Shown in pieces: positions 1 to 43,585 of a stretch of 64,000 nucleotides of DNA (position 1 is its first letter; every line of letters begins with the position of its first letter). The notes beneath the pieces were generated by a model. The model searched no databases and had not been told where the DNA came from. It saw only the letters and a program-made list of their open reading frames with translations. The stretch is from Desulfonatronovibrio hydrogenovorans DSM 9292 (GTDB lineage Bacteria; Desulfobacterota; Desulfovibrionia; Desulfovibrionales; Desulfonatronovibrionaceae), in the NCBI RefSeq assembly GCF_000686525.1, contig NZ_JMKT01000010.1:1-64000 (forward strand), read 5' to 3'. Both the position numbers and the translations under genes were made by a program.

Positions 1-222
<222 letters not shown>

Positions 223-363
223 AATAACTAGAAAGCTACCTATTAGTAACTCATTCAAAACAAACTAGACCCGTAAGCTTCCACTCGAAAATGAAAAACC
301 TACTTGAATCTTAAAAATCGGCTCACTATTTAATTGTCAAGGAACATGATGTCGAAACTATAA

Positions 364-392
364 TTTTTAGATGACTTTCAATTTCTTGTCAA
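364..392 (-). promoter_or_regulatory. Probable rRNA operon promoter P2
   Basis: On the minus strand TTGACA (392-387) is followed after 17 bases by TAAAAA (369-364), facing the 16S gene. With P1 upstream this makes a tandem pair, as is common for rRNA operons. A third TTGACA hexamer (340-335) has no convincing -10. Confidence 0.5.
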
Positions 393-475
393 TCATTTTT
401 TTAATTATTTAAAGTTTCGACTTTATAGCTGAGAATCAAAGATCACTTCCCGACTTTTCCGAGCCGGGAAGAGAG

Positions 476-504
476 TATTTAAATACTTGTAACTGGATTG
501 TCAA
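476..504 (-). promoter_or_regulatory. Probable rRNA operon promoter P1
   Basis: On the minus strand TTGACA (504-499) is followed after 17 bases by TAAATA (481-476). It lies about 255 bases upstream of the 16S 5' end and points towards it. A perfect -35, a 17-base spacer and a 4/6 -10 make a good sigma-70 promoter. A hairpin with CTTCCCG/CGGGAAG arms (about 446-472) lies just downstream in the leader. Confidence 0.6.
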
Positions 505-888
505 CAGAAAGTTTGCAAATCATCACTATCCACAGCAGCTTGAAATCATTAACAAGGCAAAACAGATAAATCTGGGAGGCCACGTCTGTGGCTGATGGAA
601 GAAAAAACTATTTTGTTGTTTGCACAAATAAATTTTCCGGATCCATCCAGGAAATTCACCCATGAGGGCCAGGACATCAGGTGTCCTTGCCAGGCCCTGC
701 CAGGAATCCTATATATGAATAATGAGTAAATGAGCCACAGACCGGCTTGCCAGAGATAAAAAACTGATCAGAATCGGCCATGACCAGCAGGCCATGGTTA
801 AGCAAGGCAAAGCAGACAAGCCTTCAATTAGGTTTCTTAATGAATCAATTGATTATACAGCCAGCGATAAACACCCAGGGAGCAAGAA

Positions 889-1329
889 ATGAGTCATGAC
901 CGGCCTTCCAGGGCCAACCTCAAAAACATCCTGACCCCCATCCAGTTTATGGTCACCCAGGAAAACGGAACCGAACCCCCTTTCAGGAATGAATACTGGG
1001 ACAATAGGGAGCCGGGCATCTATGTTGACGTGGTGTCAGGGGAGCCTTTATTCAGTTCAACCCATAAGTTTGAATCAGGAACAGGCTGGCCAAGCTTTAC
1101 CCGGCCCATAAGCCCGGACAGTGTAACAGAGCACCAAGACCAAAAGCTTTTCATGGTCAGAACTGAAGTCCGAAGCAGGCAGGCCGACTCTCATCTTGGC
1201 CATGTCTTTGATGACGGACCTGAACCAGACCGAAAAAGGTACTGCATCAATTCAGCAGCCCTGAGATTCATCCCGGTCAGCAAGATGAAGCAAGCCGGCT
1301 ATGAAGACTATCTGCATCATTTTGACTGA
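889..1329 (+). CDS. msrB: Peptide-methionine (R)-S-oxide reductase MsrB
   Basis: Reduces methionine-R-sulfoxide in proteins, a cytosolic oxidative-damage repair reaction. The 146-residue product carries the MsrB blocks: GTGWPSF (64-70), the [10 protein letters not shown] segment (102-111) and [11 protein letters not shown] with the catalytic Cys119. The two CxxC zinc pairs found in many MsrB proteins are absent: the positions read VDVVSG and RSRQAD, so this belongs to the zinc-free form. No second cysteine sits at the usual resolving position, so recycling may go directly through a reductant. The start is set by AGGGAG about 6 bases upstream of the ATG. It is a single gene, divergent from the rRNA operon. 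Confidence 0.93.
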
Positions 1330-1705
1330 ACCGGGGTTCATCCGACTGCAGCCTGCTTATGAGAAAAGAACTGCCCCTTTGGGTAAAGAAACAGAATATG
1401 TCATCTCCAAGCTGAAGCAGGTCTTGAACTCTGGAGTAAAACCCGGGAATAAAATCTGATATCCATACCCACCGAGGCAGTGGCCAGGAGTAGTCTGCCC
1501 CCTGTCCAGGACAAGAGATCTTTTCTCATTGCTGCACCTGGCAGACAACCTGTTCAGCCCTGGCCGGAAAGCAGGCAAAAGAAAAATATCAATACACTTT
1601 GCTCCAAAAAGGACCTCAATTGTCAGGCCTGCCATGGACGCCTGCCTTCCTTCAGAAAGCACGGTTCGAACCTTTTCCCGGCTATATTAAGAAGACTGCA
1701 GGACC
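1330..1705. other. Gap between msrB and pabBC
   Basis: About 375 bases at the convergent junction of msrB and pabBC. Small open frames on both strands (up to 101 codons) have no recognisable domain, no good ribosome binding site and compositions typical of chance frames. I see no gene and no clear terminator. Confidence 0.5.
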
Positions 1706-3448
1706 TTAGGTCAGCTTTGCCCGGAACATGCCCCGGACCGAATTGATCAAAAATACTCCGGAGCATTTTTGCATATCTTCTAAATAAAGAACCTTTTCCT
1801 GCAGGACACCTGATGCCAGCAGAAACTGTCTGTAAGTCCCGGCCAGCAGACCGCTTCTTACAGGAGGAGTCCAGAGAATCCCCCCTATTTCCAGGGCGAT
1901 GTTGGCCATGGAGGCTTCAGTGATCTCCCCCCTTTCATTCCAGAAAAGAGTACTGTGGGCCTTGGGGTTTGAAGACCCTGCGTCATCAAATGCCCTGCGG
2001 CTGGTTGTCTTATGATACAAAAAAGGGTCATCAGAACTTATTCCCCCTGCTGCCAGACTCAGCAGAAAGGGACTGGGAAGATCTTCAACCACCTGCTTTT
2101 GAATCCTTATCCGGCCTGTTTTATCAACCAGAAGCCTGACCTTCCAGTCCCTGGCTCCGAGATTTTTTCCAAACTCCCGGAGCGAACTCAGTACCTTTTT
2201 CATATCTACGCAAAAATCAAAATAAACACCTGACTCTTTAAGCCTTGCCATGTGGGCTCCCAAAAGGTGATAGCCGCCCTTTCCGGTCCAGAGAATGCTT
2301 TCCAGGAGTGAAAACTCCGGGCTGATCCTGTGCAGAGCCCTGCTCTTGGTTTTGCATTCATTCCACTCGTCTTCCGGGGTTGAATCCCAGACTATCCCTC
2401 CGCCCACACCATATTCGGCCTGTCTGGTTCTGTTATCCACCAGGACAGTTCTGATGGCCACATTGAACTGAGCCCGGCGTCCTGGCCCGGCATATCCGAT
2501 GCAGCCGGTATAGATACGCCGGGGCGAAACTTCCAGACCGGCAATGATCTTCATGGTGGACGGTTTGGGAGCACCGGTAATGGAAGACGGAGGAAACAGG
2601 GCCCCCATGACCGAGCCGAGCCTTGCCCTGGTCCGACAACTGACCCTGGAAGTCATCTGCCAGAGAGTCGGATACTTTTCAGCCTGGAAAAGGTCTTTAA
2701 CCTCAACGCTGCCCGGGTCGGCAATTCTTCCCAGGTCGTTTCGGACCATGTCTGTAATCATGACATTTTCAGCCCTGTTTTTGTCGCATGACCGGAGCAT
2801 TAACGCCTGGGACTGGTCCGGCCAGAATGCAGGTCTGCGGGCAAGGGTCCCTTTCATGGGCCTGGATTCCAGAATATCTCCGGTCAGCTTGAAAAAGAGT
2901 TCCGGAGAAAAGCTGCACACAGAGTATTGCCCGGTGTCAACAAAAGCTGCAAAAGGAGGATCATGACTTTGGGCCAGGCAGGTGAAAAAACAAAAAGGAT
3001 CCTGTTCCAGCCGGGTCCGCAGACGGTAGGTGTAATTGACCTGATAAGTATCACCCTGTTCAATATGCTTCTTGATGACCTTGATCCGGTTTTGATATTC
3101 CGGAAACTTGAGTTCCGGAACCCAGACCGGTCTGCCCGGCCTTATTCCAGGATCAGGCAGGGCCTCAAGTTTACGTAAGGACTGGAAAAGTCCGAACCAG
3201 AGCTTGGGAAAAACATCATCCGTAACAGTCTGATAAGAATCATCAAAAGCAGGCCCGGCCTCATAAGAAATAAACCCCGCAGCATAAACCCCTTTAAGCC
3301 GGATCTGATCCTGGATCTTAAGCAAGGCATCCTGAACTTCATCCAGGCTGAAGGTCTCAATTACTGCCACTGGCCTCTCAAAGCAAAGCCAGCAGTTCTC
3401 AGGCTGCGCCCTGAGCAGGACCCTGTGGCTGTCAGCCCTGGCCGTCAT
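1706..3448 (-). CDS. pabB: Aminodeoxychorismate synthase component I fused to aminodeoxychorismate lyase (PabB-PabC)
   Basis: Makes p-aminobenzoate for folate: the PabB half aminates chorismate and the PabC half releases pyruvate. Residues 1-370 are a chorismate-binding enzyme; RPMKGT (196-201) has the lysine that marks PabB rather than TrpE, and the DMVRNDLGRI, SITGAPK and YGVGGGIVWDS blocks follow. Residues about 375-580 are a class IV PLP lyase with the Schiff-base lysine in YHKTTSR (Lys480) and the GEITEASMANIAL block. PabB-PabC fusions are known in several phyla. The glutamine amidotransferase PabA is not in this window, so ammonia transfer must rely on a distant gene. It is last in an apparent htpX-tspO-pabBC run. 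Confidence 0.93.
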   Translation of the reverse strand: MTARADSHRVLLRAQPENCWLCFERPVAVIETFSLDEVQDALLKIQDQIRLKGVYAAGFISYEAGPAFDDSYQTVTDDVFPKLWFGLFQSLRKLEALPDPGIRPGRPVWVPELKFPEYQNRIKVIKKHIEQGDTYQVNYTYRLRTRLEQDPFCFFTCLAQSHDPPFAAFVDTGQYSVCSFSPELFFKLTGDILESRPMKGTLARRPAFWPDQSQALMLRSCDKNRAENVMITDMVRNDLGRIADPGSVEVKDLFQAEKYPTLWQMTSRVSCRTRARLGSVMGALFPPSSITGAPKPSTMKIIAGLEVSPRRIYTGCIGYAGPGRRAQFNVAIRTVLVDNRTRQAEYGVGGGIVWDSTPEDEWNECKTKSRALHRISPEFSLLESILWTGKGGYHLLGAHMARLKESGVYFDFCVDMKKVLSSLREFGKNLGARDWKVRLLVDKTGRIRIQKQVVEDLPSPFLLSLAAGGISSDDPFLYHKTTSRRAFDDAGSSNPKAHSTLFWNERGEITEASMANIALEIGGILWTPPVRSGLLAGTYRQFLLASGVLQEKVLYLEDMQKCSGVFLINSVRGMFRAKLT

Positions 3449-3496
3449 AAGATAGCCCTTTTATACCAGTGAAGGAGTAAAAAAAACTGGCCGGCA

Positions 3497-4018
3497 TCAG
3501 TTCAGGAGCACCAGACCCAGGTTGAGGTAAGCGGCAAAAGCCACCCACAGGGCATAGGGAATAAAAAGGATTGAAGCTGCTCTGCTCAGCGGGCGGGCCT
3601 TCCTGATAAAGACCAGGATAAGGAGAAACAGCATTAAGATGTTGACAAAGGCAGCTCCAGGACTTTGCAGGCCAAAGAAAAGCCAGGACCACAGCCCGTT
3701 CAAAACCAGCTGTCCGGCCCAGAGCAAAATGGCCGGCTGTCTCAGGACCGGTCTTTGAATCCACACCAGCCAGCCTGCCACAGCCATGAAAAGATACAGG
3801 ACCATCCAGACCGGAGTGAAAATCCAGCCTGGCGGGGTCAAGGCAGGCTTGACCAGTTCATCATACCACGGACCAGGCCTGAAAAAAGCTCCGAACATAG
3901 AGGCAGCAGCAACCAGGACCATGAACCCTGCCAGGGAAAGAATATGCTTTTCCCTGATAAGCTTGAAAAAAAACCCGGCAGATGATTGTCTACCGGGTTT
4001 TTGGGGGGTGCTTTTCAA
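3497..4018 (-). CDS. tspO: TspO/MBR family membrane protein
   Basis: A five-helix inner-membrane protein of the TspO/peripheral benzodiazepine receptor family, which binds porphyrins and related tetrapyrroles. The family blocks are clear: WYDELVKPALTPPGWIF, the VWMVLYLFMAVAGWLVW helix, the LNGLWSWLFFG segment and IPYALWVAFAAYLN at the C terminus. The open frame begins at a TTG (4018) preceded by AAGG, giving 173 residues, about 10-20 longer at the N terminus than usual. An intrinsic-terminator hairpin (3966-4002) lies inside this 5' part, so the true start may be further in. It sits 14 bases after htpX. Confidence 0.9.
   Translation of the reverse strand: MKSTPQKPGRQSSAGFFFKLIREKHILSLAGFMVLVAAASMFGAFFRPGPWYDELVKPALTPPGWIFTPVWMVLYLFMAVAGWLVWIQRPVLRQPAILLWAGQLVLNGLWSWLFFGLQSPGAAFVNILMLFLLILVFIRKARPLSRAASILFIPYALWVAFAAYLNLGLVLLN
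3966..4002 (-). terminator. Intrinsic terminator-like hairpin inside the tspO 5' end
   Basis: On the minus strand a 10-bp stem AAAAACCCGG/CCGGGTTTTT with a 14-base loop is followed by more T residues (eight T in total). It would stop transcripts leaving htpX. Because it overlaps the annotated 5' codons of tspO, it may act as an attenuator or show that the tspO start is further downstream. Confidence 0.6.
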
Positions 4019-4032
4019 AAAAGGTGCCTTTG

Positions 4033-4923
4033 CTATCTGTTAAGTTGGCCTTTAAGGGCCTTAATGCGATGATCCAGAGGCGGGTGGCTCATAAAAAGCA
4101 TTTTCCAGTCAAACCCGTCCGCCTTGCCATTAATGCCAAAAGAAGCCATCTGATCAGGAAGGGGCTCCTGAATTCCTTTTTTGAGCTTTTCCAGGGCTGA
4201 AATCATTTTTTCTGTCCCGGCCAGCTTGGCCCCGCCGGCATCTGCCCTGAATTCACGCTGCCTGCTGAACCACATGACAATGGTGCTGGCCAGGATACCG
4301 AAGACGATCTGGGAGACGATGGTGGCCACGAAAAATCCGATTCCATGTCCTTCCTCGTTTTTCAGGATCACCCGGTCCACAAAATGCCCCACCAGCCTGG
4401 AAATGAATATGACAAAAGTATTTACCACGCCCTGAATCAGGGTCAGGGTAACCATGTCCCCATTGGCCACATGGCTGACCTCGTGCCCCAAAACAGCTTC
4501 CACTTCATCCTGGTTCATGTTCCTTAAAAGTCCGGTGCTCACCGCTACCAGGGCATTATTTTTGTTCATGCCGGTGGCAAAGGCATTCGGGGCTGGGGAA
4601 TCAAAAACAGCCACCTCAGGCATGCCGATGCCAGCCCTGGAAGCCTGCTGTCTGACTGTCCGCACCAGCCAGCTCTCAAGCTCGGTTTTGGGCTGGGTGA
4701 TCACCTTGGCCCCGGTCATGCGTTTGGCCATCCACTTGGATATAGCCAGGGAAATGAACGATCCACCAAAGCCCAGCACAGCTGCCAGAATCAGCAGGTT
4801 GCCGTAATCAATGCCCACCCGCTGCTCATCCAGAATTCCGCTTACCCCTAAAAGGCTCAGAACCACGAACAAGACAGCCAGAATGGCTATGTTAGTCACC
4901 AGAAACAGAAAAACTCTTTTCAT
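4033..4923 (-). CDS. htpX: Membrane zinc metalloprotease HtpX
   Basis: M48-family inner-membrane protease that degrades misfolded membrane proteins. The 296-residue product has two N-terminal membrane helices, the zinc motif HEVSH (147-151), two further hydrophobic segments and the third zinc ligand in REFRADAGG. The start is the ATG at 4923, set by GGAGGA eight to nine bases upstream; the frame is open 11 codons further but without a ribosome site. A good promoter (5005-5033) lies about 80 bases upstream. It leads the run htpX-tspO-pabBC. Confidence 0.95.
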
Positions 4924-5004
4924 TTTGTATAGTCCTCCGGATAAATTATATTCCATGAGTTAAAAGCAAATCAACAAGCATAACAATCTGTTATATCAAA
5001 AGTT

Positions 5005-5033
5005 ATTATTATACAAAGGCTGCAGATTGTCAA
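5005..5033 (-). promoter_or_regulatory. Probable sigma-70 promoter of htpX
   Basis: On the minus strand TTGACA (5033-5028) is followed after 17 bases by AATAAT (5010-5005); an overlapping TAATAA gives a 16-base spacer. It points at htpX about 80 bases downstream. Confidence 0.55.
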
Positions 5034-5160
5034 CATTGGCCCTGTCAGCCGGTCCTTGACAAGAGCAGATTCTTTACAGTCCGGTTTGTTGCAGGTAAAA
5101 GAAAAATTTAAGGAAAAATAAGACCGTGCCGGGCCATGGTCAACACCAAAAACGGAGAAC

Positions 5161-5730
5161 ATGATGATATCCAGAGACCAAGCCCTGGAAATGCTTAAGC
5201 AGAATCTGAAAGAAGAAAACCTTGTCAGACACTCCCTGTCCACAGAAGCTGTTCTGAAAAACCTGGCCAGAGAGCTTGGTCGGGATGAAGAAGTGTGGGG
5301 TCTGACCGGACTCCTGCATGACCTGGACTATTCACTTACTGCGGATAACCCTTCCCAGCATGGAATAGAGAGCTCGGCCATGCTCACAGGCCAACTCCCT
5401 GAAGAGGCCTTGCAGGCCATAAAGGTGCATGCAGCTGAAATGAACCGGTCCGGTCATCCTGAATCTGAACTGGACTTTGGCCTGCGCTGCGGCGAAACAG
5501 TAACCGGGCTGATCATGGCTGCCGGGCTGGTCAGGCCCAATGGTCTGGATGGCATGAAGCCCAAAAGCCTGAAAAAGAAAATCAAGGATAAGGCATTTGC
5601 TGCTTCGGTCAACAGAGAAATCATCCAGGAGCATGAAAAACTTGGGTTGGACCTGACCTCGTTTTTGGCCCTGTCCATAGCCGCCATGCAGTCCATAAGC
5701 CGGGAAATCGGATTTGCTCAATCACCCTGA
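5161..5730 (+). CDS. HD-domain metal-dependent phosphohydrolase
   Basis: A 189-residue HD-superfamily protein of the kind often annotated as a predicted HDIG hydrolase. His24 (RHSLST), the His53-Asp54 pair in LLHDLDYS and the following HGIESS/KVHAAE histidines supply the metal ligands typical of the fold. The substrate cannot be read from the sequence; related proteins act on nucleotides or phosphoesters. The start is one of two adjacent ATG codons after GGAGAAC. Its 3' end overlaps hemC (opposite strand) by 13 bases. Confidence 0.85.
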
Positions 5731-6650
5731 GAAGAATATACTACATCCAGGATCTCCCTGCCACCGCCATCCAGAACCTTTCTGGCCAGCTCAACCCCGA
5801 TCTTTACGGCGTCCTTGGGCTTTCCGGTCTTGGTCCGGCGGATAACGGTCTGACCCAGGACATCCGACACCAGACCGGTGGCATAGAGACGATTGTTTTC
5901 CTGCAGGCACAGGCAGGCAATGGGGACCTGGCACCCTCCTTCCAGTTCAGCCAGAAAAGCCCGTTCACAGGTCACGCAGAATCTGGTACTGGAATGATCC
6001 ATAAAACCCAGGAACTCATCAAGCTCAGGCCGGTCTGAGGCATATTCAATACCCAGCGCCCCCTGCCCCACTGCCGGCAGAAAATAGGGCGGCACAAGTT
6101 CGCTCTGGTACGAAGCCCTGAAACCCAGCCTTTTCATGCCGGCAGTAGCTATGATGATGGCGTCGTACAGGCCGTCTTTCAGCTTTTTCAGCCTGGTATC
6201 CAGATTGCCCCTGAGCATTTCTATCTTGAGATCAGACCTTAAATGAAGAATCTGGGACTGCCGTCTCAAACTTGATGTACCCACCACTGCCCCCTGGGGC
6301 AATGACGCCAGATCAGGGTATTTCTCAGACAAAAGCAGGTCATACCGGGACTCTCTTTTAGGAATGATTCCCAGCTTGAGCCCCTCAGGCAGCACTGCAG
6401 GCACATCCTTCATACTGTGGACAGCAATATCGGCCCGTCCATCCAGGATGGCCTCTTCAATCTCCTTGACAAAAAGACCCTTGCCTCCAACCTTGGCCAG
6501 GGGCACGTCCAGGATTTTGTCTCCTGTCGTCTTGATCTTCAAAAGCCTGACTTCAAGCCCGGGATAGCGTCCCTTGAGCCTGGAGCCGATGTGTTCGGCC
6601 TGCCAGAGGGCCAGCTTGCTTCCCCTGGTGGCAATGGTAATTTTATTCAT
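5718..6650 (-). CDS. hemC: Porphobilinogen deaminase (hydroxymethylbilane synthase)
   Basis: Joins four porphobilinogen units into hydroxymethylbilane, the linear precursor of haem, sirohaem and cobalamin. At 310 residues it has the usual length. Visible blocks are [12 protein letters not shown] at the N terminus, HSMKDVP with the catalytic Asp82, [17 protein letters not shown], and EGGCQVPIA with Cys240, which carries the dipyrromethane cofactor. It is last in a minus-strand run with the thioesterase (18 bases upstream) and the DUF1786 gene; neither neighbour is a haem gene. Confidence 0.97.
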
Positions 6651-34800: not shown

Positions 34801-37800
34801 ATGGTTGAACATAAGACCAGAGATTTAAACCTTTCAGGCTATCCGGAAATCAACTGTGCTGAACAGGAGAATATTTCCCGGTTTTTTTTCGACAAGAGCG
34901 ACTATGAGCTCCTGCGTCTGGTTAATGATGTTTACAAAAAATCCAAATCACCTGAACAGAAAAAACTCCTGACCCCTTATCTCCACCCCCACGGCATCAA
35001 AGAGGCTGCCTCTCCCAGAGCCCTCAGGGTGGCATATTCAGTAACCCAGCTTCTGGGCTCCCTGAAAACCGGCCAGGCCAGTGACAGGATCAGCGCTCTG
35101 AATTCCCTGCGGGACGAGGTCCTGTCCACTTCCCACGGACCCATGCGCATCAATACGGCCAGGGTCCTCATCGAGATCATGAAAAACCTGGTCCGAAGCC
35201 ACGGTGACTGCCGAAAACAGCTTGAACTGGCCAGGGACTTTTCCGAGGTCTCTTCGGGTAAACCCAGGCTGGTCCGGGCTCAGCTCCGGAAATACCGCCT
35301 CCTGGAAATGCCCGAGGAGTGGAATCAGGTGGCTTTTGATGAACATGTCCACGACGTCAACACCACCGGCCGAAAATCACCCACCCACCTGATCATGGAC
35401 GCCTGGATCAAGGGCATCAGAAGCATCACCGTGGTCTATTACAACCACGTCCCCAGGGAGGCGGCCCGGGAACTTCTCCAGGCCGCTGCCATCATGGATA
35501 TAAATGTCAAGATCGGCATTGAGTTCATTGTTCCCTTTAGAGGCAAACAGGTTCAGATGATCTGGATTCCCAGAGGGTTCAGCGGATCACTGGGATTTCT
35601 GGAGTTCCTGAGCGTCCCCAGAATTGTAGAATTCATGGACCAGGGAAAGCTGGTTTCCAGAAAAAATCAATCCTATACATTGATGCTTCTTGATTCTTTC
35701 AATAAAAATCACCTGGAACCGGTGAATCAGAAATACGGAATCAGGATGTCCAGGCTCAAAGAGTCGGACTTCATCAGTTCAGTAGGGCCGGGGCAGGCCT
35801 CAGTCCACCATCTGGGAAGATATATCAGAGACTGCATAGCAGCCCATACCGGGGCCGGAACTGAACCTGACATCAGCCTTCAACCTGTTGGCAGTGACAA
35901 ATACGGTGCAGACAATACTTTTGAAGCCAGCCTGTCCATTCCGGATATCTACGACATCATTGAAGATTACCTCAGGCCCTCCAGGAACCCGCAGCTCCCC
36001 AGCCTGCTTGAGGGTTCGGACCTGCCGGAGCTGCTGACCCTTTCACCTTTTGAGCTGGCCTCCAGAATCAAGTCCCTGCACTCCAATTCCAATATCACCC
36101 TGAACCTGTGCGATTTGAAGGTAGAGGATGTCATTGAAATCCTCTATGACTGCCAAGGGCACATCACTCACCTGGAAATTCTCAACCTGAAAAATCAGGT
36201 CCTGGGCAGGGAGCATGACAAGGACCGGATCATCAATCTGCAGACCGCCATCAATGCCGGCAATATAATCAAGCTCAAGAAATACCTGAGCAAGATGCTG
36301 GACCAGGTCCAGGCCAAGGATGACATGGGCCGGGAAAGAAGAGGCAAGCTCATAGAAATCCTGTGCGACATCCCGACGTTTCAGTCCTTCTACAAAGACA
36401 ACCCCCTTGGCTCATGCATTGGGTCAGATTCCACCGGACGCTCCCGGAGACTCTACGGTATGGGCCTGGTCCTGGCTGACTCCCTTCCTCCGGGTGCCCG
36501 CCGAGAACTCCGGAAACAGAAAAGCTCTTCCTACAGCCGGACCAGCGTTGGGGTTAAGGCATACACCAGACATACCCTGGTTCCGGTCAACAGGTCTCTC
36601 TGGCTGGGAGTAGTCCGGCCTGGAAGAATCCCAGGCCTGGGCAGGCTCAGCCATCGAAAGATCACTGACTGGGATATCCACGATTATTTCCCAGTCCCGG
36701 CCAGGCAAAGCAATATCTACACCATGGGCGGGATAAAAAAACCTTCTGCCCCAACCCAGACATCAAAGCCGGAAAACGGGCCTGATCAGACCAGAAGAAT
36801 ATCCACCAGGTATCTGAACACCAAGATCAAGATCACGGCCAAGATCGCCCTGGGATTCATTCCTGCCTTTCTGACCTTCTACCTCAACCAGGACTGGTGG
36901 CTTCTGGCTTATTTTGGAGCCGTCATCTGGTTTGCCATTACCGGAATCAGGAACATTATCCAGTCGGTCCTGGGCTGCGGAGGTATCAACAGACCATCCC
37001 TGGTCAAATGGAACAGCTATGTCAGCTGGGACCGGCTGGCTGACTCTTTGATGTATACCGGATTTTCCGTGCCCCTGCTGGACTACCTCATCAAGACCCT
37101 TGTTCTGGATCAATCTCTGGACATGACCGTATCCACCAACCCGGTCCTGGTTTATTCTGCCATATCCCTGGTTAACGGCATCTACCTTTCCACTCACAAT
37201 TTTTTCCGGGGGCTGCCCAGGGCGGCTATAATCGGCAACTTCTTCAGGAGTATCCTGGCCATCCCCCTGGCCCTGACATTCAACTGGCTGGCCGGAGGAG
37301 CCCTGGCCCTGATGGGGGTGGTTGCTGTGGATCTTATTCTGCAGCAGTGGGCAGCCATCATTTCCAAACTGGCATCAGACACAGTAGCCGGAATCATTGA
37401 AGGGCTGGCTGACCGGGCTCAATACATCCGGCGCAGGGTCCTGGACTATAGAAGCAAGTTCAACCATCTGTTCAACACCTATGCCCAGCTGGAGGTCCTT
37501 TTCCCCCTGGACGACGTACTCTCCCTGCTGGAGTCCACCAAAGAACTGCTGCAAACCATTGAATACGAAAAAAGAGACATGGTGAACATCCTCATAGTCA
37601 ATGCCCTGGACCTGCTTTATTTCTGGATGTATCAGCCCAGAGCCAGGGACGTCCTCAGGCAGATGTTCAAAAAGATGACCAGGGAAGAAAGAAAGGTCAT
37701 TCTCCTGTCCCAGCATGTCCTGTTCAGGGAAAAACAGATCAGCCGGCTTCTCCTGGAAGGGCTGGTGGGAAAAAGATTTTCCAGACCACTGGCCTTTTAC

Positions 37801-37941
37801 CTGGATCACTGGAGAACGTATCTTGAAGAACTGGAATATATGGCTGAAAAATGTCCACCCCTGAAAAATGACTCCAGTGCAGGTTCTTTTATGGACGACT
37901 TCTCCAGCCCAGGCCAGGCCAGCCTCCAGAATAGAATCTGA
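34801..37941 (+). CDS. Large uncharacterised protein: PHP-like N-terminal part, polytopic membrane C-terminal part
   Basis: A 1046-residue protein I cannot name. Residues about 175-330 resemble a PHP metallo-phosphoesterase: DEHVH (180-184) matches the DxHxH motif, then GIRSITVVYYNH (a Tyr-Asn-His in place of the usual T-D-H), and KIGIEFIV with Glu241 as in GxE; later HHLGRYIRDC could supply more ligands. Residues about 400-640 are soluble and include GRSRRLYGMGLVLADSLPPGA. From about 675 to 850 there are several hydrophobic helices (KIALGFIPAFLTFYL, LVYSAISLVNGIYL, FFRSILAIPLALTFNWLAGG), followed by a charged helical tail. It appears to be a membrane-anchored enzyme. The ATG has no good ribosome site, and it stands alone between the GGDEF gene and asmA. 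Confidence 0.75.
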   Translation: MVEHKTRDLNLSGYPEINCAEQENISRFFFDKSDYELLRLVNDVYKKSKSPEQKKLLTPYLHPHGIKEAASPRALRVAYSVTQLLGSLKTGQASDRISALNSLRDEVLSTSHGPMRINTARVLIEIMKNLVRSHGDCRKQLELARDFSEVSSGKPRLVRAQLRKYRLLEMPEEWNQVAFDEHVHDVNTTGRKSPTHLIMDAWIKGIRSITVVYYNHVPREAARELLQAAAIMDINVKIGIEFIVPFRGKQVQMIWIPRGFSGSLGFLEFLSVPRIVEFMDQGKLVSRKNQSYTLMLLDSFNKNHLEPVNQKYGIRMSRLKESDFISSVGPGQASVHHLGRYIRDCIAAHTGAGTEPDISLQPVGSDKYGADNTFEASLSIPDIYDIIEDYLRPSRNPQLPSLLEGSDLPELLTLSPFELASRIKSLHSNSNITLNLCDLKVEDVIEILYDCQGHITHLEILNLKNQVLGREHDKDRIINLQTAINAGNIIKLKKYLSKMLDQVQAKDDMGRERRGKLIEILCDIPTFQSFYKDNPLGSCIGSDSTGRSRRLYGMGLVLADSLPPGARRELRKQKSSSYSRTSVGVKAYTRHTLVPVNRSLWLGVVRPGRIPGLGRLSHRKITDWDIHDYFPVPARQSNIYTMGGIKKPSAPTQTSKPENGPDQTRRISTRYLNTKIKITAKIALGFIPAFLTFYLNQDWWLLAYFGAVIWFAITGIRNIIQSVLGCGGINRPSLVKWNSYVSWDRLADSLMYTGFSVPLLDYLIKTLVLDQSLDMTVSTNPVLVYSAISLVNGIYLSTHNFFRGLPRAAIIGNFFRSILAIPLALTFNWLAGGALALMGVVAVDLILQQWAAIISKLASDTVAGIIEGLADRAQYIRRRVLDYRSKFNHLFNTYAQLEVLFPLDDVLSLLESTKELLQTIEYEKRDMVNILIVNALDLLYFWMYQPRARDVLRQMFKKMTREERKVILLSQHVLFREKQISRLLLEGLVGKRFSRPLAFYLDHWRTYLEELEYMAEKCPPLKNDSSAGSFMDDFSSPGQASLQNRI

Positions 37942-40151: not shown

Positions 40152-41705
40152 ATGTCTCGTAATAACTGCCCAAAGCTGACTAAGGTCGGCTGGTTCCTCT
40201 GTATTCTTATCTTCTTCTGTTTCAGTCAGGCTTCAGCCAGACCAGTGGAAGTAGTACTTTTTCCGGATTCAGCCAGGGTCTGGGAGGAGGCTGTGCTTCC
40301 CATTGAGCAACAGGGCCACCGGCTATCAACAAGATTCAACCTGCCATCCCAGGCTGATCCGAACACAGTTACCATAACTCTGGCCCAGGAAAGTCCCTTT
40401 TCAATCACGGATATTGCATGGGAAAAGACAATGGCCCCTGAGACCGATCAGATGGCCGGGCTCAGAGAACAGCTTGATGAATTGCAAAAACAAAAGTCAG
40501 GACTTGAAACAACCATCAAGTCCCGAAAAATAGGAGCGCTTTTCTGGGAAAACCAGGCTGGCTTCCAGGCTGATACAGGGGCAGACATGGCAGACCTGGC
40601 CGGGATCATCACCACCAGCCTTGAACAGGCTTACTCTGCAATAGAAAAGGACCAGCAGCAGCTGGAAAAAGTAGTCAGCCGGATTGAAGAGATAAAATCA
40701 AGGATGGAACAAATTGCCGGACCTGACAATATGGTCTGGAAGGCGCGCATTCTTCTTGACGGGCCCGGTAATGTCCGCCAGCTGGAGGTGGCCTACAGCT
40801 ACATCCTGGGGAACAGCGGATGGAGTTCATTCTACCGCCTGGAAGCCAGACCAGGACAGGATCTGGTGGAATTTTCATGGGATGCGGAAGTCTGGCAGAC
40901 TAGCGGCACTGACTGGGATAATGTCCAGATGAGCCTGGCTACCCTGGAACCACAAAGAAAGCTTGATCCCCGCCCTCTGCCCGAATGGATAGTTGGCCCC
41001 AGGCAGGTCCTGGGCCCGATGGTCCGCACTATGGACATGGCTAGAAAATCAGAGCCGGCCCTCATGGCCATGGAGTCGCAGCCCATTCTGGAAAGGACCG
41101 GGACCTTTTCCCAGTGGCGCCTGGGTCCAAGAAGTCTGGCTGCGGGTGAAAAATCCAGGTTCAACATCCAGCAGGAAGACTGGCCTGCCCGGTTCACCCA
41201 CCTGTTAAGACCCAGTCTGGGAAACAGCGCCTTTATCAGGGCTGCTGTTGAGTTCGAGCTGGGCGGTGATTATCCCGGGGGACAGGCTCTGTTTTTTCTG
41301 GAGAGAGCCTTGACGGGTAAGAAATGGTTCAGTCTGACCGGGACAGAAGAAACTCTTTTCTTTGGCCAGGACCCCTTTGTCAGTGCCGAACTGATAACCA
41401 GGGAAAAGAAATCAGGTGCAGCCGGCTTCCGGGGAAACCGGCAAACCTATCTGTGGGACTTTGTAATTGGTCTGGAAAATAACCATTCATACCCGGTGGA
41501 CTTAAGGGTGGAAGAACCAAGACCGGTTATCAGTGATGAACGAGTCAACGCCTCCTTTGATTTCCGACCAGAGCCCACGGAAAAGACCCAGGATATGTTC
41601 ATCTGGGAACTGCCCCTGGAGCCCGGGCAAGAGGCTGAAATTCATATCAGGATAAACATGCAGGCTCCCAAAGACATGGATATGGACTGGGGCTGGAGAA
41701 GATAG
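40152..41705 (+). CDS. DUF4139 / MuiA family protein
   Basis: A 517-residue exported protein: signal peptide (WFLCILIFFCFSQASA), a DUF4140-like N-terminal beta domain starting ARPVEVVLFPDSARVWEEA, a coiled coil (about 95-190), and a C-terminal DUF4139 domain with SGTDWDNVQMSLATLEP. Homologues are called mucoidy inhibitor A, but the activity is unknown. AAGGA precedes the ATG. It lies eight bases before fapA. Confidence 0.85.
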   Translation: MSRNNCPKLTKVGWFLCILIFFCFSQASARPVEVVLFPDSARVWEEAVLPIEQQGHRLSTRFNLPSQADPNTVTITLAQESPFSITDIAWEKTMAPETDQMAGLREQLDELQKQKSGLETTIKSRKIGALFWENQAGFQADTGADMADLAGIITTSLEQAYSAIEKDQQQLEKVVSRIEEIKSRMEQIAGPDNMVWKARILLDGPGNVRQLEVAYSYILGNSGWSSFYRLEARPGQDLVEFSWDAEVWQTSGTDWDNVQMSLATLEPQRKLDPRPLPEWIVGPRQVLGPMVRTMDMARKSEPALMAMESQPILERTGTFSQWRLGPRSLAAGEKSRFNIQQEDWPARFTHLLRPSLGNSAFIRAAVEFELGGDYPGGQALFFLERALTGKKWFSLTGTEETLFFGQDPFVSAELITREKKSGAAGFRGNRQTYLWDFVIGLENNHSYPVDLRVEEPRPVISDERVNASFDFRPEPTEKTQDMFIWELPLEPGQEAEIHIRINMQAPKDMDMDWGWRR

Positions 41706-41713
41706 GAGAAATA

Positions 41714-43585
41714 ATGCTTCGGGATCCGGGAAACATCGAACTCTACGTTACTGACGATGGACTGGCTGTAAAAGTGAAAAGCTATGCCCCGCCTGGGGGC
41801 AGCAAAGCTCCCCTGACCCAGAAACAGATCACCGGGCGACTTAAAAAGGTCGGCATCCGGATTGATATTGACCACGAATTGATCAATGCTGTGGTGGCCA
41901 AAGCAGCTGCTGGGTCGGACATCACCGGGTTGACCGTTCTCAAGGGCAAGGTTCCCTTGAAAAAAGGCACCCTCTATTTCAAGCCCAGGGGTAATCCTGA
42001 GTTTCCGGTATTCAAGGGTATGGTCATAGGAAGCATGGAAAAACATGACCAGGATGTTCCGGGAGTGGATGTCTTTGCCCAGAAGGTTCTTCCGGAAAAC
42101 AGCACCCGCTCCACCCAGAGCTTCAAAGTTGGATCAGGATGTGTCCTGGATAAGGAATCAAACCAGATCCTGGCCAGAGGATACGGTCAGGTCCTGAATT
42201 CCTCCCTGGAGGTGAAAGTCAAACCCCTCTTCCGCATCAGTCCGGACAAGACCAGGATAACCAGCATCATCTTTCATTCTGATTTTCAAGGTGAATCCAT
42301 CACTCCGGAAAGAATCGTGCAGAGCCTGACTGAAATGAAGCTTGGCAGCAGTATTGACCATAAATCCATTGAAGCAGCCCTTTCCAAGGCCTACCAGACC
42401 AGGGCTCCCCAGATTGCGGTGGTGGCCAGGGGCAAACCGGCTCTTGACGGCCGGGATGGATATTTTGATCCTTCAGAAGCGGTCAAGCCACCGGATGTCA
42501 ATGATCAGGATGTGAATGTCCGGGTCAATTTCCGGGAACAGAGCATTTTCCGGTCAATTGTCCAGGGTACTGTTTTGGGCAGGCTTTATCCCCCGGAGAA
42601 AGGACAGGATGGCCTGGATGTGTTCGGAAACACCATTTCAGCCCAGCCCGGCAAGGACTCCCCAATTCAACCGGGCAAGAACGTGGAAGTCCTGGATTCT
42701 GGAGATGTTTCCGCCCTGATCTCCGGTCTGGTTGTTCTGGACAACAGCCAGATTTCTGTTCTGGATTTTTTAAGTATCAACGGAGACGTGGACTATAACA
42801 CCGGGAACATCCGGCTGGACAGCGGCTCTGTAGAGATCAAGGGGTCTATTAAAGAAGGCTTTTCCGTCAAAAGCCCGGAGCACGTCCTGGTCCACAAAAA
42901 CATTGAAGAGGCCCAGGTTCTGGCCGGTGGAAACGTGGAGGTCTCATTCGGCATCGTCATGAAGGGTTCCGGAAAAATCAAAGCCGGAGGGCTGGTGCGC
43001 TGCAAATTTGCAGAAAATGCAGTTATTCAGGCTGGAGGCAACATAATCTTCTCCAGTAACCTGAACAACTGTCAGGTCAGCTGTACAGGGGTGGTATCCT
43101 CAACCGGCAAAGGCATTGTCATCGGCGGCAAAATAAGTGCCGAGGATCACCTGGAACTGGGTCAGATCGGATCGGACTACGGGGTCAAAACCGATGTCTT
43201 TGCCGGTCCCAGGCAAAAAAACGTGTCCAAGCTTCAGGATGAAAAGACAAAACTCATTAAACACCACAAGGAAATTAAGGAGATCCTAGTCCAGCAGGCC
43301 ATGCAGAGTAAGACCGGCGGACTAAACGACCAGCAGAAGCAACGGACCAAGGAGCTGATGGAGACTTACAACACCATCCAGAACCGCATCAAAAAAATGG
43401 ACAGGCTGATCCTGGAGAAAAGCACGGACTCTGTTGATCCCCAGAAACATTATGTGCTGGTCAAGAATATCGCCTACCCCGGCACCACCATCCACATTGC
43501 AGGCAAACAGCTGAAAATTCACGAACCTATCCGTTCAGCCCGCTTCTTTTTTGATCCATCCAAAGACGCTGTGGTCTGGAGCTGA
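41714..43585 (+). CDS. FapA/DUF342 family flagellar assembly protein A
   Basis: A 623-residue DUF342 protein. After an N-terminal domain there is the family core: FRSIVQGTVLGRLYPPEKGQDG, LDVFGNTISAQPG, then a beta-helix made of short repeats (SVEIKGSIKEGFSV, NVEVSFGIVMKGSGKI, GKGIVIGGKISAEDHLELG), and a coiled-coil tail. FapA-type proteins are tied to flagella or polar localisation. The neighbouring flaG supports a flagellar role. GGAG precedes the ATG. Confidence 0.88.
   Translation: MLRDPGNIELYVTDDGLAVKVKSYAPPGGSKAPLTQKQITGRLKKVGIRIDIDHELINAVVAKAAAGSDITGLTVLKGKVPLKKGTLYFKPRGNPEFPVFKGMVIGSMEKHDQDVPGVDVFAQKVLPENSTRSTQSFKVGSGCVLDKESNQILARGYGQVLNSSLEVKVKPLFRISPDKTRITSIIFHSDFQGESITPERIVQSLTEMKLGSSIDHKSIEAALSKAYQTRAPQIAVVARGKPALDGRDGYFDPSEAVKPPDVNDQDVNVRVNFREQSIFRSIVQGTVLGRLYPPEKGQDGLDVFGNTISAQPGKDSPIQPGKNVEVLDSGDVSALISGLVVLDNSQISVLDFLSINGDVDYNTGNIRLDSGSVEIKGSIKEGFSVKSPEHVLVHKNIEEAQVLAGGNVEVSFGIVMKGSGKIKAGGLVRCKFAENAVIQAGGNIIFSSNLNNCQVSCTGVVSSTGKGIVIGGKISAEDHLELGQIGSDYGVKTDVFAGPRQKNVSKLQDEKTKLIKHHKEIKEILVQQAMQSKTGGLNDQQKQRTKELMETYNTIQNRIKKMDRLILEKSTDSVDPQKHYVLVKNIAYPGTTIHIAGKQLKIHEPIRSARFFFDPSKDAVVWS

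Follow-up and report, generated by a model that had tools for sequence, protein, structure and literature searches.

A degenerate PHP barrel of the RNase AM/TrpH branch joined to a predicted membrane domain in an unnamed protein family

We analyzed a 64,000-nucleotide stretch of the Desulfonatronovibrio hydrogenovorans DSM 9292 genome (the window) and found that in the product of one of its genes a PHP barrel of the RNase AM branch is followed by a predicted membrane domain. We computed the fold of the protein, its nearest relatives, the losses of metal ligands, the predicted membrane helices, and the distribution of the family. An earlier reading of the DNA letters alone (the sequence-only reading) had proposed a PHP-like domain joined to a membrane region, and this architecture is borne out by the structure model, by matches in the PDB, and by profile comparison with hhalign. 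The parts of the protein are as follows.

34801..37941, + strand: entire ORF, ATG start, 1046 amino acids (ORF call and orthologues)
34882..35295, + strand: N-terminal all-helical region, residues 28-165 (model, conservation)
35317..35586, + strand: first half of the PHP barrel (beta1-beta4), residues 173-262, the soluble part with the highest conservation (profile, model, structural alignment, conservation)
35344..35352, + strand: HxH metal ligands H182 and H184, sites 1 and 2 (family alignments)
35353..35388, + strand: conserved loop after beta1, DxNTxGRKSPTH (residues 185-196), with D185, G190, R191, K192, and H196 (family alignments)
35521..35523, + strand: E241, site 5 (family alignments)
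35587..35850, + strand: helical insert, residues 263-350, which corresponds to the insertion domain of TrpH/RNase AM (hhalign through the insert, model helices)
36028..36489, + strand: second half of the PHP barrel, residues 410-563 (model strands 430-435, 457-462, and 537-541; structural alignment over 176-627)
36421..36438, + strand: GSDSTG (541-546), counterpart of the PHP motif GSDxHG, with D543 retained (site 8) and T545 in place of His (site 9) (family alignments)
36820..37428, + strand: membrane domain, residues 674-876, six predicted helices (models, conservation)
37429..37851, + strand: C-terminal helical region, residues 877-1017, predicted to be cytoplasmic (models)

The ORF is a real gene of a conserved family. 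The sequence-only reading had suggested gauging how widely the family occurs; a search for relatives returned 184 stretches from the GTDB collection, and among the best 80 of these, almost all are labelled Desulfobacterota or deltaproteobacterial, and one comes from candidate division KSB3. Of 101 related genomes, 82 contain relatives, mostly full-length, with identities of 38-77%. The copy number in this set is usually one, and some close genera are without the gene. Across the phylum, 51 of 394 genomes carry the family. One Desulfobacteraceae contig (L030) has two well-diverged copies arranged tail to tail (219-3386, + strand, and 3416-6598, - strand) with approximately 30 bases between them. 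The supposition that there is no named family was sound: none of the models in Pfam, NCBIfam, PHROG, or PADLOC attains its cut-off with the 1046-residue protein, PF02811 gives no match to it at E values up to 10, and the gene is absent from the five PF02811 places in the genome. Literature searches, which covered mainly open-access papers, found no paper on the family. A thousand-residue protein widely conserved in sulfate reducers goes unrecognized by all four profile libraries scanned. A strong match to dsrA (dissimilatory sulfite reductase) is present in 46 of the 51 family-positive genomes, as counted from tables in which about half of all sampled genomes are dsrA-positive, many dsrA-positive genomes are without the family, and phylogeny is not controlled. 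We therefore draw no functional link between the two. A plasmid search found no member of the family on plasmids. We note that the PLSDB "plasmid" from Neisseria gonorrhoeae (L223, NZ_CP119142.1) measures 2.17 Mb and that three PLSDB records from Acinetobacter baumannii (H4-H6) measure 3.7-4.1 Mb; these are chromosome-sized and likely to be mislabelled chromosomes.

The assignment of the barrel to the RNase AM/TrpH branch of the PHP fold, in both fold and descent, is well supported. An AlphaFold model of the whole protein, made from a 34-sequence alignment, has a mean pLDDT of 76.6. Its strands (178-184, 208-214, 235-246, 249-257, 430-435, 457-462, and 537-541), together with the intervening helices, form the distorted seven-strand beta/alpha barrel of the PHP superfamily; the sequence-only reading had named such a barrel as the outcome to look for in a predicted structure. 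The top PDB matches of the model are 3e0f, 3o0f, 9etk (RNase AM), and 2yb1 (CV1693), with Z scores of 17.6-18.5 over 254-265 residues and, for 3e0f, 9etk, and 2yb1, Foldseek E values from 6e-6 to 1.5e-3. Polymerase PHP domains match with Z scores of about 9-12. The closest solved structures thus belong to the RNase AM/YciV/TrpH group (E. coli YciV, Chromobacterium CV1693 [2yb1], Vibrio 9etk, and Bifidobacterium 3e0f), a family characterized by 5'-3' exonuclease or pAp phosphatase activity.

Evidence independent of the model points the same way. When residues 160-575 were compared with 30 TrpH proteins by hhalign, the score was 42.8 (E of 5e-5), against 14-20 for reversed and ten column-shuffled controls and 15-19 when other regions of the sequence were used. 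The alignment extends from the HxH motif across the insertion domain as far as residue 341 and, together with the model helices at 263-350, places an insertion domain after the fourth strand, as in RNase AM/TrpH. The second half of the barrel, compared alone with TrpH by profile, does not rise above background. We assigned it from the strands of the model, the GSDSTG motif that immediately follows the last of them, the spacing from this motif to the next glycine (GSDSTG...GMG and GSDFHG...KLG are, by eye, of equal length), and a structural alignment that continues to residues 627-630. The domain had been taken as residues 150-350 in the sequence-only reading; it reaches to about residue 630, and GSDSTG with its D543 had been overlooked.

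We then compared the metal ligands with those of characterized PHP proteins. PHP domains have nine metal-binding residues (PMC3666897), and RNase AM binds three manganese ions through His13/Glu72/Asp255, Glu72/His83/His198, and Asp20/His45/His257 (PMC9410882). Four of the nine ligands are retained in the family (H182, H184, E241, and D543) and the other five are replaced. By alignment, the retained four would make up exactly one metal site, the His13/Glu72/Asp255 set; the identification of D543 as the putative last-strand aspartate ligand rests on motif, spacing, and the modelled strand. The position of Asp20 is occupied by Lys or Thr at residue 189, that of His45 by Tyr214 or a neighbour, and that of His257 by T545, and the positions of His83 and His198 hold variable residues. 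No conserved arginine stands at the places aligned with the RNase AM 5'-phosphate arginines (Arg107, Arg110, and Arg141), where the alignment of the insert is loose. Like RNase AM/TrpH, the family has the barrel with an equally placed insertion domain, and it retains HxH, Glu, and the GSD motif of the last strand. It differs in the loss of five of nine ligands, including the third-metal equivalents of Asp20/His45/His257, in its fusion to a membrane domain and additional helical regions, and in giving no Pfam PHP match.

The motifs on which a degenerate PHP catalytic pattern had been proposed (DEHVH at 180-184, YNH at 214-216, and GIEF at 239-242) are all present as letters. The pattern holds insofar as four ligands of one site are kept; YNH, however, is not a ligand triad. 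Residue 216 varies among 141 sequences (67 Tyr, 36 Phe, 30 His), and the ligand of Thr-Asp-His is lost (Tyr214 or its neighbour), which speaks against Tyr-Asn-His as an alternative catalytic triad. Conservation of the other residues singled out at the time, D180, H182, H184, and E241, was confirmed in most relatives, whereas H216 is variable and replaced by Tyr or Phe in most.

Even the four retained ligands have been lost repeatedly. The complete H-H-E-D set is present in 136 of 181 sequences, and both HxH histidines are kept in about 154. On a tree of 153 rows, built from an alignment from which the ligand regions were excluded, D543 changed at least six times, E241 at least four times, and HxH at least twice. 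An altered HxH pair is always accompanied by loss of D543 among the 181 sequences, an association that has no statistical power, as the tree holds just two independent HxH events. In one genus (g12), every one of the 18 genomes sampled carries a copy with H184Y and with Ser, Asn, or Gly at position 543. A further copy is present in 10 of these genomes, nine of which keep an H-H-E-D copy, and the degenerate copy is the sole one in the remaining eight. In genomes with both an intact and a degenerate paralogue, the role of a metal-free PHP fold is directly testable by genetics. Among 14 degenerate copies, the first half of the barrel is the most conserved part, with a mean pairwise identity of 0.90 as against 0.74-0.84 elsewhere, and D185 and K192 are unchanged in all 14. 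Across all 181 rows, D180, D185, G190, K192, D200, K204, and G205 are invariant. This conservation of the loop and of the first half in copies without ligands suggests that a conserved use of this face of the barrel outlives the metal site. The family shows how a PHP barrel was transferred out of RNA or nucleotide chemistry to become part of a membrane protein, shedding its metals stepwise. A distant homologue on another contig (L178, G237:C1:4409000-4423000; ORF from 6196, + strand; 954 residues, 27% identical to the window protein over the membrane part) has "NHP" where TrpH has "AHP", so that the seventh PHP ligand is apparently retained, but D543 is lost. Degeneration here may have followed an earlier or a separate route.

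We consider the chances about even that the barrel is a degenerate PHP module for binding or for regulation of the membrane domain. The protein would be integral to the membrane; its N-terminal half would lie in the cytoplasm and consist of a barrel of RNase AM/TrpH type, insertion domain included, that holds at most one metal site and no longer serves as the usual three-metal phosphoesterase. Either a partner or a ligand would bind to the barrel; a ligand might be phosphorylated or anionic and be contacted by the conserved HDxNTxGRK loop. The signal would then reach the six-helix membrane domain, where the activity itself would take place, on the cytoplasmic side. That a ligand is bound, that the membrane domain is controlled, and that there is any substrate are inferences. 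The pattern of a site kept in most members and lost in some, beside a loop conserved throughout, is more in keeping with binding or contact between domains than with a conserved hydrolase. Against this stands the full one-metal site in about three quarters of the sequences, which would be odd if the metal never mattered, and neither a ligand nor a partner nor the operon context points to a signal.

It is fairly unlikely, in our judgment, that the PHP domain is still an enzyme, acting in most members as a one-metal hydrolase on a phosphorylated substrate near the membrane, with K189, R191, and K192 replacing the lost metals. The ligands of exactly one site remain intact in the majority noted above, conserved basic residues lie in the loop beside it, and positively charged side chains can replace metals in variant PHP domains (PMC3666897). 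However, known PHP enzymes have a three-metal site, and the RNase AM active-site mutants D20A, E72A, and D255A/H257A lose activity (PMC9410882), while the family is without equivalents of D20 and H257. In eight genomes, moreover, every copy is without the site. That the remaining ligands were lost more than once makes hydrolysis less likely as the conserved function, and it counts likewise against the membrane-tethered enzyme of the sequence-only reading.

We regard as unlikely a barrel that is a mere structural scaffold stabilizing the protein. The precedent is E. coli DNA polymerase III, whose PHP domain was retained after loss of its metal ligands and has a role in stability (PMC3666897); the alpha subunit (2hnh) matches our model with a Z score of 11.6, and repeated ligand loss in the family would suit such a role. 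The polymerase PHP domain derives from another parent subfamily, has lost other ligands, and is attached to a polymerase in place of a membrane domain. In the family of the window protein, however, the conserved residues D185, G190, R191, K192, and H196 cluster in the loop after beta1, by the old active site, and not across the core; they remain when the ligands go, suggesting a surface that is used.

A module for binding or regulation would act on the membrane domain, for which the sequence-only reading had placed helices near 675-850. Both models, of the whole protein and of the membrane part alone (pLDDT of 83), have long helices from residue 674 to about 876. The turns that connect them on one side are very short, and the opposite side has basic segments, from which six helices with an N-in, C-in topology are predicted by the positive-inside rule. 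Residues R717, N718, Q721, R745, D748, H799, N800, R803, N813, R816, D860, E867, and D871, at least 95% conserved, lie in the cytoplasmic halves of the helices. Polar positions conserved at this level number 14 of 84 in the cytoplasmic halves versus 2 of 84 in the outer halves, a contrast for which Fisher's test ignores shared ancestry and uneven exposure. Compared alone with the PDB, the membrane part gave no Foldseek match below an E value of 0.5 and no Z score of 5 or more, which is not proof of a new fold. A viral structure library gave no match at an E value of 0.001 or below.

What we took to be a short-motif resemblance of this domain to the SpecificRecomb (Gcr, PF10136) membrane proteins was followed up by profile-profile comparison with ten PF10136 proteins. 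Remote kinship is very improbable, and we rejected it: one weak 28-residue match at the expected place scores 24.5, a single-sequence score of 27.4 is higher but aligns the wrong part of the protein, and the scores over the helices lie within or barely over the background of shuffled, reversed, and unrelated-membrane-protein controls. The likeness, a helical soluble part followed by several membrane helices, is superficial only. Tentatively, and with well under even confidence, we can picture an unnamed family of proteins that are either membrane transporters or enzymes acting on lipids; their membrane fold would be absent from the PDB, and a cytoplasmic RNase AM-type pseudo-enzyme, sensing a nucleotide or another phosphorylated metabolite, would control them.

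The gene stands alone, as the sequence-only reading had it: among 81 loci, no linked partner recurs beyond the genus, apart from one weak case. Its neighbours are a response-regulator/GGDEF gene on one side and an AsmA-family gene downstream, and the AsmA neighbour recurs on two contigs of the same genus and in the one case of weak similarity elsewhere. Farther along the window, a DUF4140/DUF4139 protein (40152-41705) is followed 8 bases on, on the same strand, by a FapA-domain protein (41714-43585). The same genome encodes an ordinary TrpH protein (L144), so the family is not a replacement for RNase AM/TrpH, as well as a second small PHP protein (L145) and a 1161-codon open frame, similar in size to a polymerase III alpha subunit, whose PHP match is the strongest. 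A further gene of this genome (L146, 64-2433, + strand) encodes a 789-residue protein that seems to be a secreted PHP protein: its N-terminus reads like a signal sequence, and its second half contains a PHP-like region, with PF02811 below cut-off.
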